Below are positions 38,678 to 60,285 of a stretch of 64,000 nucleotides of DNA, in pieces (position 1 is the first letter of the stretch; every line of letters starts with the position of its first letter). This stretch comes from Psychrobacter jeotgali. GTDB taxonomy: Bacteria > Pseudomonadota > Gammaproteobacteria > Pseudomonadales > Moraxellaceae. The notes below the pieces were generated by a model. That model had not been told where the DNA came from. It was given only the letters and a program-made list of their open reading frames with translations, and searched no databases. The translations under genes and the position numbers were made by a program. The stretch spans positions 2,542,001 through 2,606,000 of the forward strand of contig NZ_CAJHAF010000001.1 in assembly GCF_904846315.1 (NCBI RefSeq), given 5' to 3'.

Positions 38678-39511
38678 TTACTCAACGATTACATATCTAC
38701 CTGTGTTTGGATCAACTAGACGCTGCTGAGGTTGAGTATTGTCAGGAACACGAATAACAGGAATCGTTTCATCAAACTGGGTATTATCTATAATTTCAGC
38801 ATCAGCTTCTTGGCCAACAACTACTGCTCGATTACGACCTTCGATAGCAATGGCATCATTACCACCTGCAGTATCGACACGACGCACTTGGTCTTGCGGC
38901 GCTACAATAACTTCTTTCACCCGATATTTAGCAGGACGGATGACTCGAGTAGTTTGCACTACTACTGGCTCTACCACGCGCTCTTCAGCAATAGCGACCT
39001 CAGCTTCAGGCGCTTTGGCTTCACTAATCACCGGCGTCGGGAAGCTATCACCAAAATGGTTATCACACTGCTGCATAGTTAGGCGTACCGGATTGCCATT
39101 ACCGTCCATATAGACGTTTACTGGCATATCTGCTGCAAAGGGTACATATTTGCCTACTAAAGCTCCAGAAACACCATAACGCCCATCTGATTGGCCAACT
39201 CCTAGATCACACGCACCAGCTTCATAATCTGAGGTGCGTAGATTCTGGCTATTCACTACACTTTGAGGAATCATAACTTCAGAAAGGCGCATTTTTTTTA
39301 CGCTTGCTTCACCAGCACGGCGCTTTGGATTCTGATAGGTATAAGGAGTATAAAACTTGGCTGAGCCATCTTTTACGGCTGCTACACATTCATCATAACT
39401 GTCATAGCCTACGTTACCATGGCTATCAGTGATTACAGCTGCGTTAGCAGAGGTTGCAAACATAGCTATACCTGAAGTTAGCATAGCGGCGGTCAATACA
39501 TTGAATTTCAT
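38678..39511 (-). CDS. Exported protein of unknown function, two-cysteine pairs
   Basis: 277 residues. Signal peptide about 1-24 ending SANA. The mature N-terminal half has SYDECVAAVKDGSAKFYTP, GACDLGVGQSDGRYGV and MQQCDNHFG, with three widely spaced cysteines, and a KYVPFAADMPVNVYMDGNG strand region suggesting a beta-rich domain. The C-terminal third is rich in Val, Glu and Arg (VVEPVVVQTTRVIRPAKYRV) and probably flexible. I recognise no named family. It may be confined to Psychrobacter and relatives. The small upstream ribosome binding site GAGGAA supports the start. Confidence 0.75.
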   Translation of the reverse strand: MKFNVLTAAMLTSGIAMFATSANAAVITDSHGNVGYDSYDECVAAVKDGSAKFYTPYTYQNPKRRAGEASVKKMRLSEVMIPQSVVNSQNLRTSDYEAGACDLGVGQSDGRYGVSGALVGKYVPFAADMPVNVYMDGNGNPVRLTMQQCDNHFGDSFPTPVISEAKAPEAEVAIAEERVVEPVVVQTTRVIRPAKYRVKEVIVAPQDQVRRVDTAGGNDAIAIEGRNRAVVVGQEADAEIIDNTQFDETIPVIRVPDNTQPQQRLVDPNTGRYVIVE

Positions 39512-55446: not shown

Positions 55447-56418
55447 ATGCTCGATAACTGGCATCGTTTGCATCCAGTGCCTGATATTATAAATATGAGC
55501 GCTATAGATACATGCGCTGCAAATAAAGGCACTGTAGAGCCAAAGCTGACACTAACACCAGATAATCGCGGCGTGAGCTATGGTGATGGTTTCTTTAGCA
55601 CCATGGGGGTTATAAACGGCGAGATACTGTGGCAAAGCTATCATGCGCAGCGTCTTAACTCCCACGCTCAAGCCCTACAATTAAATATCGATAACCAAAA
55701 GCTGCTCGCAATGTTAGCCAGTCATGCTAAGCAACTAGAGCAAGGGGTAATGAAGGTTGTCATTACTCGTGCTCAGCAAGCAGTGCGCGGTTATGGATTT
55801 ACCGCCAATAAACTAGGTAGCGATTGCGAGATTTGGCTCAAGTCAACGGCTATGTCTATCGAGACTACTGCGTGTACATCTCTATCCCATGGGTGCTCCG
55901 TCTTACTCCAGCCTTCCATCTCTGCTATCTGTCTGTCTGCAAAATTGGCTTGTCTACCGCCGCCATTAGCGGGTCTCAAAAGTCTAAATCGGCTGGATAG
56001 TGTACTAGCCAGTGGCGAGCTCCAAAGAGTTAAAGGAGCTAATCCCAATATCGGTGAAGGCTTGGTACGTGATATGACTGGCTGCTGGGTCGAGGGCACG
56101 ATGAGTAATGTCTTTTACCAATTATCTAGCGCCCAATCGACTGAGGCTAGCTATAAAGCCAATCACCATCTATCAGACCACTATCTATTATCAGGTCAGT
56201 GGTTTACGCCGCCTATAGTGGAGTCGGGTGTCGCTGGCGTGATGCGCCAAGTCATCATAGATAACCTCATTAATACGGATAAACCTGTTATTGAACGAGC
56301 TTTATTAGATAAAGATTTGGCTCATATCAGTAAACTATTCTTTTGCAATGCCCTACGCGGAGTAATGCCAGTAAGCTCGCTGACTTTGTTAAATGGAGAG
56401 CTACTGGAGTTTGGTTAG
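55447..56418 (+). CDS. pabC: Aminodeoxychorismate lyase
   Basis: PLP enzyme (class IV aminotransferase fold) that releases 4-aminobenzoate and pyruvate for folate synthesis. 323 residues, longer than the usual about 270. It has RGVSYGDGFFSTMGV, HAQRLNSHAQAL, VVITRAQQAVRGYG and GLKSLNRLDSVLAS with the PLP lysine. C-terminal EGTMSNVFY and RQVIIDNL are family segments. A long interrupted region of Ser, Cys and Leu (about 140-170) is divergent. In many bacteria pabC is followed by mltG, tmk and holB. Here a restriction cassette intervenes. Confidence 0.85.
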   Translation: MLDNWHRLHPVPDIINMSAIDTCAANKGTVEPKLTLTPDNRGVSYGDGFFSTMGVINGEILWQSYHAQRLNSHAQALQLNIDNQKLLAMLASHAKQLEQGVMKVVITRAQQAVRGYGFTANKLGSDCEIWLKSTAMSIETTACTSLSHGCSVLLQPSISAICLSAKLACLPPPLAGLKSLNRLDSVLASGELQRVKGANPNIGEGLVRDMTGCWVEGTMSNVFYQLSSAQSTEASYKANHHLSDHYLLSGQWFTPPIVESGVAGVMRQVIIDNLINTDKPVIERALLDKDLAHISKLFFCNALRGVMPVSSLTLLNGELLEFG

Positions 56419-56421
56419 TGC

Positions 56422-56613
56422 TTACTCTACGCCAAATATAATAAATTTAGTATCAATAAAGTTATCAGCTTCTAACACAATATCCTCATTTCTATATCTC
56501 TCTTGCGCTTCTAACATCGCGGTTCCTGCATCTTTAGCGACCACCTCAATGAGGGCACTCATGGTTTCGATTATTTCTATTTGATAGGTTTTTAAGCCTG
56601 TTTTTTCTGTCAT
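56422..56613 (-). CDS. dpnD: DpnD/PcfM-type small protein
   Basis: 63 residues from the ATG at 56613, which has GTGAG at the right spacing. The open frame continues to 56706 (94 residues). The sequence KTYQIEIIETMSALIEVVAK, then AMLEAQERYRNEDIVLEADNF and an aromatic/acidic end, matches the DpnD-PcfM domain by recollection. DpnD is encoded beside DpnI in Streptococcus pneumoniae and its role is unknown. Here it lies in a cassette with a DpnI homologue, though not in the same operon. It ends 3 bp from the pabC stop, on the opposite strand. Confidence 0.72.
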   Translation of the reverse strand: MTEKTGLKTYQIEIIETMSALIEVVAKDAGTAMLEAQERYRNEDIVLEADNFIDTKFIIFGVE

Positions 56614-56714
56614 AACGGTTCTCACTTTTGCTACGGCGGGTTTCATTGATCGTAGCGAAAAGATTCTAGAGAAGTGATCGTCTTTTGTTAACAATGCTTG
56701 TGTCATGCATTAGA

Positions 56715-56759
56715 TTGATCAATGATCCTTTTAAATCAATATTATTAAAGTTTAAAAGG
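56715..56759. promoter_or_regulatory. Divergent promoter with inverted repeat and two GATC sites
   Basis: CCTTTTAAA (56727-56735) and TTTAAAAGG (56751-56759) are perfect 9-base arms around an AT-rich 15-base centre. The right arm overlaps the ribosome binding site of the 188-residue gene. Two GATC tetramers (56717-56720, 56724-56727) abut the left arm. A weak promoter fits: TTGATC at 56715-56720, 17 bases, AATATT at 56738-56743. An operator is a reasonable reading, not shown. Confidence 0.45.
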
Positions 56760-56766
56760 AAAAATT

Positions 56767-57333
56767 ATGCGTCCAATCTATGAAGAAAGTAGAATCCCGC
56801 TACAAATACGGCGATTGATGATTTTTGACGAAATCTGTCAATTAGCACAAAAAAAGCCTGACGAAATTGTCCATTTATCTCGCTATACACAACTGGCATT
56901 AGGCGTCATGTATCTGCGAGACTTCAATAAATATATTGCCTTTGGTGGAGTATTTGAATATGCGCATACACGTGAGGAGGTTATTGAACAAGGTATCAAT
57001 GTCTTTCCTAATGATGAGCTAGTGAGGTGTGCGATAACAGTGAATCTCAAACCGTTTACTAAACCTGCTCGAACACCTATTCAGTTGCTTTGGCACTGGA
57101 ATAGTTATGTGAAGAATAGGCAGCATGCGTATATAGATTATTGTGAAGAGAGCTTTTTTCGAATCAATGATGAAATTGATTGGGAATATCCACCGCATAA
57201 ATTTCATGACCGTTTAGTTGCAACAGCACGATTACCATTATGGGATGATAGGGATGAATTGATTGCAGATGTTTATCGGGATAAGAAAGGACAACCAAGA
57301 CCTAAGCGCTACAATGAAAAGCGTTTAGGATAA
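56767..57333 (+). CDS. Unknown 188-residue protein in the DpnI cassette
   Basis: Not recognised. 188 residues, soluble and strongly charged, rich in Arg, Glu, Tyr and Trp. Segments: MRPIYEESRIPLQIRRLMIF, YTQLALGVMYLRDFNKYIAF, NLKPFTKPARTPIQLLWHWN, and a Lys/Arg-rich end RDKKGQPRPKRYNEKRLG. No DPPY/NPPY or FxGxG methyltransferase motifs, no P-loop, no zinc finger, no transmembrane segment. GGAAA ribosome binding site. It faces the dpnI-like gene with a 9-base 3' overlap (57325-57333) and is divergent from dpnD. Its position suggests a cassette function, but none can be assigned. Confidence 0.8.
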   Translation: MRPIYEESRIPLQIRRLMIFDEICQLAQKKPDEIVHLSRYTQLALGVMYLRDFNKYIAFGGVFEYAHTREEVIEQGINVFPNDELVRCAITVNLKPFTKPARTPIQLLWHWNSYVKNRQHAYIDYCEESFFRINDEIDWEYPPHKFHDRLVATARLPLWDDRDELIADVYRDKKGQPRPKRYNEKRLG

Positions 57334-58089
57334 TTTCCGATAACGACCACGGCCTAAAAACTCAATAATACCTTTATCACGTAATACTTGTAACTGCTGG
57401 CGAATTTTATCTTTAACATGGTTGTTTTCAGGATACTTAAGCTGTAATTCATCCGCAAAAGCATAGACTTGTTGCAAAGTAAATTTGTCATCAAGTCTAT
57501 CAATACATTGCCAAACATCTAACGTCCAGCCTCGTGCTTGCGGCGTTTGCTCTCGTAAAAATAACGTTTTTTGAAATTGCTGAGTGACTTTCTCACGTGC
57601 TATGACCTGCTGATTTTTAACCAAAAACACCTTTCCTGAATCTGGAACTTGGCGCAAATCAATATTACAGCCCACCCAACCTGCACGCCTTGCTGTAGGA
57701 GGTAAAGGCTTGCGTTTAATAATCATTGCTGATTTAAAAAAATGCTTGGGAATAATAAGAAAATTATTAACTCTAAGCTTAGGCGAGTAAGTCAAAAAGA
57801 AAAAACTGGGATTATTCTCACTATTGATACGTTCAATCATAGTGTCATAGGCACCATCGTTAACAATGTTACTTAATTTTGCCTTTTTACTTTTGAGCTC
57901 GTATTGTTCTTTACAGGTGGCACAATAAAAGTCAGCGACAGGTTGGTTATTGACAAATTCAGCTAAAGGCTGGGTACTACAGTTGGGACAATAAGCATTA
58001 TCTTTGACCCAAGCTTCACTGAGGACCCGAATGATTTGGGGCGTTGAGTTATAATTGGCAGCTAAGCTTTGATTGAAGTCTAAAAACAT
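57325..58089 (-). CDS. dpnC: DpnI-family methyl-directed restriction endonuclease
   Basis: 254 residues, the same length as pneumococcal DpnI as I recall it. Catalytic domain: VADFYC with Asp53, then YELKSKK with Glu64 and Lys66 (PD-(D/E)XK nuclease). A zinc finger is formed by Cys34, Cys37, Cys56 and Cys59. LSNIVNDGAYDTMIERI, FFFLTYS, PPTARRAGWVGCNIDL and the C-terminal winged helix (about 185-254, IRQQLQVLRDKGIIEFLGRG) follow. DpnI cuts G(m6A)TC in both strands, so the enzyme destroys Dam-methylated incoming DNA. No methyltransferase is needed nearby. Markedly AT-rich (hand-counted lines 32-37% G+C, against 42% in a line of mltG), suggesting transfer. Confidence 0.93.
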   Translation of the reverse strand: MFLDFNQSLAANYNSTPQIIRVLSEAWVKDNAYCPNCSTQPLAEFVNNQPVADFYCATCKEQYELKSKKAKLSNIVNDGAYDTMIERINSENNPSFFFLTYSPKLRVNNFLIIPKHFFKSAMIIKRKPLPPTARRAGWVGCNIDLRQVPDSGKVFLVKNQQVIAREKVTQQFQKTLFLREQTPQARGWTLDVWQCIDRLDDKFTLQQVYAFADELQLKYPENNHVKDKIRQQLQVLRDKGIIEFLGRGRYRKLS

Positions 58090-58200
58090 AATTGTGAATC
58101 TATAAAATGGATGGTTGAGTAAGACATAGGATATCTTATAAGTTATAGCACGATAAACCTTGATTTGATGAGCAATTTGTTGAAAGCTAAGTAAATCTCA

Positions 58201-58229
58201 TTGAAATGCGTTCCGTTCAGTGCTAAATT
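58201..58229 (+). promoter_or_regulatory. Candidate mltG promoter
   Basis: TTGAAA (58201-58206, 5/6), exactly 17 bases, then TAAATT (58224-58229, 4/6). Start near 58236, about 22 bases before the mltG ATG. It lets mltG-tmk be transcribed without pabC, as expected if the cassette split the old operon. Confidence 0.5.
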
Positions 58230-58257
58230 CTAGCAAACCTCTGCCCTGTGAGTTGCC

Positions 58258-59487
58258 ATGAGCAAGCTAACCCCTGAAAACCCTGATGATAAACCTAATA
58301 ACAGCTTGCCTACCGAAGAGTCTAATCAGACCGAGGATGAGGCAATTGTTACGGACATCTCGCTTATTAGTAGAGAGGGTAAACCACGGCGTTATAAAAA
58401 GGACAACCAGTCTTTTTTTATGCAGCGTGGCTATCAGATTTTATTAGTACTGGGACTGATTGCCGCTTTTTTATTAGTAATGGTTTATCAAACGTTATTT
58501 GGGCGGATAGAGCAGCCTGAGCAAAAAGTAACTATTGAAAAGGGCGATACTTATTACGGGTTGTTACCACAGTGGCAACAAGAAATCCCGCTGTTTTCTG
58601 CCAGTATTGCTAAGATGTATATTAAATCACAGGTTGATGCGCCCTTGCATGCTGGTATTTATCAATTACCTGCCAATCCGACCATTGCCGAAGCACTACA
58701 AATATTGGGGCAAGGCGCAAAAGTGGCTATGGTAAAAGTACAGATTATCGAAGGCAAAACGGCCAATGACTTGTATCAGAATTTGCTTGAAAATGAAGGC
58801 ATTAAAAAAGAAGCATTAACTGCCAATGCGGATAATGCTAGCATTGCTCAAGCACTCGACTTGGTAGGCGTACTACCCGACTCGGTAATCAATAGCGATG
58901 ATCCTATTGTCAGCTATAACCTTGAGGGCTGGTTTGCGCCTGATACTTATTATTATGGAGAAGGTGCTACCGATACCACGGTGTTGACCGACCTGTATAA
59001 GCGTCAGCAGCAAGCCTTGACCAGTGCATGGGAGAGTCGAGCGCCAGACTTGCCTTATGAGACTCCTTATGAAGCGCTGATTATGGCTTCTATTATCGAA
59101 AAAGAAACCAGTGTGCCAGAAGAGCGTCCGCTAGTAGCTGCAGTATTTACCAATCGTATGAAAAAAGGCATGCGCATGCAGACCGATCCGACCATTATTT
59201 ATGGCATGGGTAGCCGCTACGATGGTAATATTCGCCGAGCAGATATCGATGAAAAAACGGCCTATAACACTTATCAAATCGACGGCTTACCGCCAACCCC
59301 TATTGCTTTGCCTTCTGCCAGCTCGATAGAAGCCACTTTGCATCCGGCTGATAGTGAAGCATTATATTTTGTCGCTACTGGTAATGGCGGTCATAAATTT
59401 ACCAATAATTTAGCAGACCATAATCAAGCGGTAAAAGAATATCTAAAGGTAATGCGTGAAAAAAAGTCACAAACGCCGCCACCATAA
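58258..59487 (+). CDS. mltG: Endolytic murein transglycosylase MltG
   Basis: Cleaves nascent peptidoglycan and probably terminates glycan synthesis. 409 residues, longer than E. coli MltG (340) by a 60-residue polar cytoplasmic N-terminus. One membrane helix (about 60-80), a LysM-like region, then the YceG domain with EGWFAPDTYYYGEG and IIEKETSVPEERPLVAAVFTNR carrying the catalytic glutamate, and MQTDPTIIYGMG. GTGAG ribosome binding site. tmk follows after 54 bp. Confidence 0.93.
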   Translation: MSKLTPENPDDKPNNSLPTEESNQTEDEAIVTDISLISREGKPRRYKKDNQSFFMQRGYQILLVLGLIAAFLLVMVYQTLFGRIEQPEQKVTIEKGDTYYGLLPQWQQEIPLFSASIAKMYIKSQVDAPLHAGIYQLPANPTIAEALQILGQGAKVAMVKVQIIEGKTANDLYQNLLENEGIKKEALTANADNASIAQALDLVGVLPDSVINSDDPIVSYNLEGWFAPDTYYYGEGATDTTVLTDLYKRQQQALTSAWESRAPDLPYETPYEALIMASIIEKETSVPEERPLVAAVFTNRMKKGMRMQTDPTIIYGMGSRYDGNIRRADIDEKTAYNTYQIDGLPPTPIALPSASSIEATLHPADSEALYFVATGNGGHKFTNNLADHNQAVKEYLKVMREKKSQTPPP

Positions 59488-59541: not shown

Positions 59542-60285
59542 ATGCCCTCTGCTTTAAGTGCTCAGTCTAATAACGTTCAAACTCCTCATGTAAAGCCTGA
59601 TAGTATAGATTCTAGTTCAGAAAAACTTGACAAGGCACGTGGGCATTTTATTAGCTTTGAGGGTACAGAAGGCGTAGGTAAGACCACGGCTATCGACCAG
59701 CTCTGTAGCCATCTACAAACGGTTGGTATCGATTATCTACGCACACGCGAGCCGGGTGGTAGCCCTTTTGCTGAGCGGCTGCGGGCTATTCTTTTAGATC
59801 CTGCCACTGATATCAATGATGATACCGAGCTGTTACTGCTGTTTGCAGCACGCTGTGACCATTTACAACAAGTTATCTTACCTGCTTTGAACAGCGGTAC
59901 TTGGGTGATTTGCGACCGTTTTACTGATTCGACCATCGCCTATCAAGGTTTTGGACGGGCATATGGGGATAGTGAAGTGGTGGCAAAGATTGAATTACTG
60001 ATTGCGCAGTTTGTGCCACTATTACCTGATATGACCTTATGGCTGGATTTACCGGTCACTGAAGGTATGAATCGAGCTGGTAAGCGCAGTGCGGCTGACC
60101 GTTTTGAACAACAAGCTACCGAGTTTTTTACCCGAGTATATGAAGGTTTTAGCGCTCTTGCTACCCTACATCCTGAGCGTATTCAGCGTATTGATGCCTC
60201 GGGAAGTAGCGACGAAGTTAGCGAGCGTATTTGGCAGCTAATACAAACTCAGTTTGGTATCGATAGATTTGGTATGGATAGTTGA
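59542..60285 (+). CDS. tmk: Thymidylate kinase
   Basis: Phosphorylates dTMP to dTDP. 247 residues. A polar N-terminal extension of about 34 residues precedes the kinase, whose P-loop is FEGTEGVGKTT (about 39-49). DR-motif: ICDRFTDSTIAYQGFGR. The LID has RAGKRSAADRFE. The usual length is about 210, so the extension accounts for the difference. Normally next to holB, which is absent here; the strand switches to the antiporter gene. Confidence 0.92.
   Translation: MPSALSAQSNNVQTPHVKPDSIDSSSEKLDKARGHFISFEGTEGVGKTTAIDQLCSHLQTVGIDYLRTREPGGSPFAERLRAILLDPATDINDDTELLLLFAARCDHLQQVILPALNSGTWVICDRFTDSTIAYQGFGRAYGDSEVVAKIELLIAQFVPLLPDMTLWLDLPVTEGMNRAGKRSAADRFEQQATEFFTRVYEGFSALATLHPERIQRIDASGSSDEVSERIWQLIQTQFGIDRFGMDS

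Follow-up and report, generated by a model that had tools for sequence, protein, structure and literature searches.

In Streptococcus pneumoniae, strains carry either DpnI or DpnII at a common chromosomal location (PMC3573125, available in part), and in Neisseria either drg or dam is found at leuS, with drg followed in the gonococcus by a DpnIIB-like gene (PMC4269198, available in part). In a gonococcal sequence record, a DpnA-like gene lies approximately 200 bp from drg according to its coordinates. Among the papers listed in searches of the openly accessible literature, none was found to describe a DpnI/DpnII locus in Psychrobacter. Here, we analyzed a 64,000-nt stretch of the genome of Psychrobacter jeotgali (contig NZ_CAJHAF010000001.1, positions 2,542,001 to 2,606,000), hereafter the window, in which a dpnI gene lies between pabC and mltG. 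We are highly confident in reading it as part of a DpnI-type, Gm6ATC-directed restriction cassette, and in reading the pabC-mltG interval as a fixed slot for exchange, in which that cassette alternates with a DpnII-like one or with nothing. The genes of the cassette and its flanks are as follows (positions in the window):

55447 to 56418, forward strand: pabC (aminotransferase class IV), left flank of the slot
56422 to 56613, reverse strand: dpnD-like gene (DpnD-PcfM family), 63 aa from its probable start
56767 to 57333, forward strand: orf188, 188 aa, between dpnI and dpnD, convergent with dpnI and overlapping it by 9 bp
57325 to 58089, reverse strand: dpnI (dpnC-like), 254 aa, with a PD-(D/E)XK catalytic domain (approximately residues 1 to 182) and a winged helix (approximately residues 183 to 254), the limits set by analogy with DpnI in PMC4117772 (available in part)
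58258 to 59487, forward strand: mltG (YceG family), right flank of the slot
59542 to 60285, forward strand: tmk (thymidylate kinase), the next gene of the conserved flank

The sequence of the dpnI product identifies it as a DpnI orthologue. Profile searches matched Pfam DpnI to residues 1 to 180 (E=2.6e-78) and Pfam DpnI_C to residues 185 to 252 (E=2.1e-33), the PADLOC model mREase_II (type II methyl-directed enzyme) matched at 5e-116, and the solved DpnI aligned with residues 2 to 253 (E=9.1e-97), in agreement with the DpnI-type protein of 254 residues described in the initial annotation. The catalytic residues D53, E64 and K66 and the zinc residues C34, C37, C56 and C59, whose numbering we take from that annotation and presume to be that of DpnI, were all present, and these residues and the winged-helix end were located as the annotation had said. 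Also present were Q18, L129, R135 and W138, the base and methyl contacts of DpnI (PMC4117772, available in part). All 11 residues were invariant in two sets of Psychrobacter loci that may overlap in species (31/31 and 52/52), the larger set (L032 to L083) being drawn from the best 80 of 106 relatives; four further Psychrobacter loci that were cut or broken (L095, L096, L105 and L110) were excluded from the 52-locus counts. The median dN/dS of dpnI was 0.077 (32 of 45 pairs computable, with dS near saturation). A winged-helix-like stretch approximately 48% identical to that of DpnI also lies under features labelled "sigma-70 family factor" on four Lactiplantibacillus plasmids (H30 to H33), perhaps as a methyl-adenine reader used elsewhere.

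The family assignments of the flanking genes confirmed the location of the cassette, with pabC on one side and mltG-tmk on the other. The dpnD product scored 45.6 bits against Pfam PF14207 (cut-off 25; E=7e-12), which upheld its DpnD/PcfM-type assignment. The length had to be revised: a longer ORF of 94 aa extends to position 56706; however, the gene is probably 63 aa long, because 22 aligned relatives have ORFs of 61 to 69 aa. The cassette is AT-rich, as had been noted, with a GC content of 0.37 to 0.39 versus 0.44 to 0.46 for pabC, mltG and tmk.

From this composition the initial annotation had suggested horizontal transfer into a core operon. A recent and isolated insertion of a foreign DpnI cassette, splitting the operon in one lineage, would account for the difference in GC content and for the five empty junctions that exist in the genus; however, it was refuted at the genus level and is barely credible. 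Related strains that carry the cassette, which the annotation had itself named as evidence against transfer, proved to be the majority: of the 105 Psychrobacter genomes, 84 gave a DpnI match, which in 81 lay at the pabC-mltG junction, 145 to 598 bp from mltG (two others were 5.2 kb away, and one was on another contig). DpnI protein distance tracked SucA distance (Mantel r=0.73, 29 genomes; 0 of 999 permutations as high), and the invariance of the key residues argues in the same direction. The corresponding comparison with MltG distance gave a Mantel r of 0.83 (27 genomes). Outside the genus, DpnI occurred in 9 of the approximately 194 other Moraxellaceae among 299 genomes sampled from the family. 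The high AT content of the cassette does not mean that it arrived recently.

Of the 84 matches, 75 covered the whole catalytic-domain profile with no stop, four covered it with one stop, three were in pieces and two were tiny remnants; in at least two of the 75 (G021 and G050; L006 and L011), the alignment ended before the winged-helix end. Among the 52 loci from the best 80 of 106 relatives, pabC was matched in 51 and mltG in 51, the two misses being contig-end loci; in L083, mltG was 5.2 kb away.

To define what occupies the slot elsewhere, we read the junction in 26 genomes, namely 20 from among the 21 lacking a DpnI match and a further six of interest; G080 yielded no mltG, and G087 ends at the slot. 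The 105 genomes divide into 84 with a DpnI match, 12 with a Dam-type cassette beside mltG, five with an empty slot, and four with other or ambiguous contents (L171, L188, G080 and G087). The 12 DpnII-like cassettes (L168, L169, L173, L175, L176, L180, L181, L184, L186, L190, L191 and L193), all in genomes without DpnI, lay beside mltG. In 11, pabC was the neighbour on the other side; in G074 (L193), another gene took that position, and no pabC was found on that stretch. The comparison of junctions across the genus that the initial annotation had proposed revealed five related genomes that are empty there (L170, L172, L179, L183 and L187). In L171 (G104), the slot held one unrelated gene, an ORF of 523 aa whose start looks lipoprotein-like by eye, and L188 (G046) contained dpnD and orf188, no dpnI, and other genes. 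No single slot among the loci compared held both DpnI and a GATC methylase. Judged from these gene contents, the interval from pabC to mltG serves as an exchange slot with opposite cassettes in different lineages. A separate insert of three genes (approximately 1020 to 1030, 228, and 229 to 249 aa) was common to L188, L189 and L192 (G046, G038 and G073), where it separates mltG from the dpnI cassette or what is left of it; a DSHGNVGYD-type motif in its last protein recurs, as judged by eye, in the window ORF at 38678 to 39511.

The Dam-type cassettes had a common layout: a DpnA/CcrM-type methylase at the end distant from mltG, a protein of 81 to 89 aa, a small HTH protein, and a putative endonuclease and a Dam-family methylase, whose genes occurred in either order towards mltG. 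The Dam assignment came from profile matches in two cassettes (TIGR00571, E=7.6e-83 and 7.4e-91) and a match of one Dam-type methylase to the DpnM structure (E=5.6e-49); the remaining Dam-family methylases were 67 to 98% identical to the two profiled ones. For the DpnA-like protein, the closest solved protein was CcrM (5e-58), followed by a chain labelled DpnA (6.5e-32), and it was 49 to 53% identical to the second methylase of the three-gene cassettes of pSRQ700 and pRMLUG4_2. By mutual similarity, the putative endonucleases fell into five kinds. That of L169 (G096), alone among the 12, matched Pfam DpnII (8.7e-92); the L168 kind (four loci) and the L175 kind (two loci) were both weakly MutH-like, below the cut-off; the L173 kind was found in two loci and a DUF6997/DUF7226 kind in three. 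GATC cutting by the other 11 cassettes can be only presumed, because their endonuclease genes are of four non-DpnII kinds. The gene contents indicate that the Dam-type cassette is modular, with the dpnA-like, small-protein and HTH genes constant and the cutter swapped.

The number of changes at the slot was estimated on a sucA tree (sucA lies approximately 46 kb away in the window) built by a quick search for 100 genomes, five having been left out before counting; gains and losses are not distinguishable in the resulting counts. The 12 Dam-type rows needed 12 changes, 11 of them forced by well-supported branches, and DpnI presence needed 19, of which 16 were forced. The DpnI and Dam labels were no more clustered than shuffled labels. 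An empty-or-other label (nine rows, including two DpnI remnants) was slightly clustered, with seven changes against a shuffled mean of 8.7, and a value as low occurred in 18 of 500 shuffles.

Such a distribution could also arise at a mere insertion hot spot, in which DpnI is ancestral and the other cassettes, genes and deletions are independent events without recombination through the flanks. The unrelated gene of L171, the three-gene insert of L188, L189 and L192, the left neighbour other than pabC in G074, and the degree to which DpnI follows the species tree are in keeping with this alternative, which we nevertheless consider unlikely. All 12 Dam-type cassettes have the same layout, with the dpnA-like end at pabC in 11, and no recombinase or transposase was seen by eye among the junction ORFs that were read. 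In addition, a truncated dpnA was found beside pabC in four of the 52 DpnI loci from the best 80 of 106 relatives (L047, L052, L059 and L075). These remnants correspond to residues 45 to 276 or 58 to 276, are 93 to 97% identical to the intact L173 gene, and have dpnD on one side and pabC on the other, oriented as in Dam-type cassettes. The four loci align through one breakpoint, as a crossover would leave. Pieces of dpnA were also present in L002, L005, L025, L029 and L174 of another set (L005 and L174 come from a single genome, and overlap between the collections is possible). The truncated dpnA is probably a replacement scar, such as would remain if crossing over took place within a DpnII-like cassette already resident there. 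These findings favor repeated exchange at a fixed slot over independent insertions.

Dam-family matches with E below 1e-50, taken as strong, were found in 16 genomes, 12 without and four with DpnI. DpnI was accordingly less frequent with Dam (4/16) than without it (80/89; Fisher p=1.9e-7, uncorrected for kinship). In 15 independent pairs on the tree, Dam and DpnI differed in opposite directions in a mean of 9.0 pairs, in the same direction in 1.5 and not at all in 4.5 (sign test, median p 0.065). A strict genome-wide exclusion was rejected, as G007, G038, G063 and G073 (4 of the 84 DpnI genomes) hold both. The Dam-family genes of these four lie on separate contigs of 5.8 to 8.7 kb (L297 in G007, L298 in G063, L299 in G038 and L300 in G073), one of which is circular by a 164-bp end repeat, and their DpnI proteins retain all 11 residues without stops. 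On three of the contigs, the gene next to Dam was 66 to 67% identical to the L169 Pfam DpnII endonuclease, and on L300 it was 42% identical to the DUF6997-kind endonuclease gene; Dam and endonuclease modules are also found on the Psychrobacter plasmids pYP14d and pA17P1. The assemblies may be mixed, DpnI may be silent in these genomes, or an inhibitor may be present.

The third gene of the cassette, orf188, was present in 65 of the 105 genomes and was restricted to Psychrobacter among the genomes searched; we looked for a known family or fold and found none. Its median dN/dS of 0.075 (38 of 45 pairs computable, with dS near saturation) was close to that of dpnI. This distribution and this ratio substantiate the gene, and its sequence conservation indicates a genuine coding gene. 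Of its 65 carriers, 64 have DpnI (Fisher p 1.4e-9, uncorrected), and 20 genomes have DpnI without orf188. Independent pairs on the tree changed the same way in a mean of 9.1 cases and the opposite way in 1.0, with no difference in 4.9 (sign test, median p 0.0215).

Among the 52 loci from the best 80 of 106 relatives, orf188 adjoined dpnI on the pabC side in 41, with a fragment in L070, and dpnD was detected in 45. In loci without orf188, dpnD may directly follow dpnI (L036 and L057), as it does in several other bacteria (L084, L085, L094, L100 and L109). From this arrangement, orf188 appears to have been inserted into a dpnI-dpnD pair that is older than itself. Two copies, one long (188 aa) and one short (164 aa), or mosaics of the two were seen in 12 of 55 loci, and the second copy was sometimes broken or short. 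We infer that orf188 is accessory to DpnI; it is a new element of the Psychrobacter system, with a role predicted by association. A bolder proposal, which we regard as quite doubtful, is that orf188 encodes a new accessory dedicated to DpnI, such as an inhibitor or tuner, whose variable tandem copies buffer the cell during slot switching, and that the slot behaves like an epigenetic incompatibility switch. If so, the state of the slot would decide which relatives and mobile elements can swap DNA.

The window cassette is predicted to encode a DpnI-like restriction system that targets methylated sites (Gm6ATC), in which DpnD may have a part. On the model of DpnI biology (PMC3573125 and PMC4117772, each available in part), the enzyme would cut double-stranded DNA at Gm6ATC, and the GATC sites of its host would be unmethylated. 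The host's own GATC sites would be safe because it appears to be without Dam methylation; its genome has no PF02086 (Dam-family) match, but it has one PF01555 methylase, which we count against this reading. Incoming double-stranded GATC-methylated DNA, from Dam-positive phages, plasmids or DpnII-type neighbours, would be cut. The slot itself would have been rewritten repeatedly among a DpnI cassette (dpnI, often orf188, and dpnD), a DpnII-like cassette and the empty state, with homologous recombination via the conserved genes on either side as the most likely route, presumably with DNA taken up by the cell. The window's genome carries a DprA-family gene; this family is also found in 11 of 14 control genomes and proves no competence.

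DpnI could instead serve mainly in housekeeping or regulation, with restriction secondary. In N. gonorrhoeae, expression, growth and biofilm all change when drg is lost (PMC4269198, available in part), and DpnI is frequent in Psychrobacter; however, the 19 changes in DpnI presence on the tree and the broken copies better fit a dispensable defence gene, and we consider a mainly regulatory role improbable.

GATC avoidance was considered as a footprint of the system and dropped. The observed/expected ratio of GATC was 0.58 in the window, 0.42 in the DpnI loci (n=52, from the best 80 of 106 relatives), 0.51 in the 12 Dam-type loci, and 0.50 in the five empty loci and L171; GGCC and CCGG were about equally depleted in DpnI and Dam-type loci, and there was no cassette-linked difference. 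These three were the most depleted palindromic tetramers (0.41 to 0.45 in the 52 DpnI loci and 0.47 to 0.51 in the 12 Dam-type loci).

With these data, the alternation is traced over a whole environmental genus, with 11 forced changes of Dam state on a quick tree, and the scar-like remnants, together with the many named species, provide a means to test what drives the switch. A conserved family tied to DpnI, orf188, is brought to light, and the four genomes in which DpnI and a plasmid-like Dam gene appear together allow a direct test of how a cell can survive with both.

The S. pneumoniae DpnI/DpnII system has an orthologous DpnI with the same residues and a DpnD-family neighbour, the two genes being named dpnC and dpnD. 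In contrast to the pneumococcal case, in which the alternation is among strains, that in Psychrobacter is across species of the genus, and pabC-mltG is not known to be the pneumococcal DpnI/DpnII site. Psychrobacter also adds orf188 between dpnI and dpnD, and its DpnII-like cassettes carry an HTH gene, a protein of 81 to 89 aa and five kinds of putative endonuclease. In both, a cassette that combines a Dam methylase, a DpnA-like methylase and an endonuclease uses the one chromosomal place as well (PMC3573125, available in part). In Neisseria, as here, a DpnI homologue, 47% identical to the window's protein in the gonococcus, replaces dam at a fixed core-gene flank, and a DpnA-like gene follows drg; however, the flank is leuS, dam after leuS is described without a full restriction-modification cassette, and orf188 is not mentioned in the available part of the source (PMC4269198). 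The cassettes of pSRQ700 (Lactococcus) and pRMLUG4_2 (Staphylococcus) likewise combine a Dam-family methylase, a second methylase and a type II endonuclease, but they are plasmid-borne, differ in gene order and orientation, and have no HTH or small-protein gene annotated between. Psychrobacter is a third, genus-wide case after DpnI/DpnII in Streptococcus and drg/dam in Neisseria.
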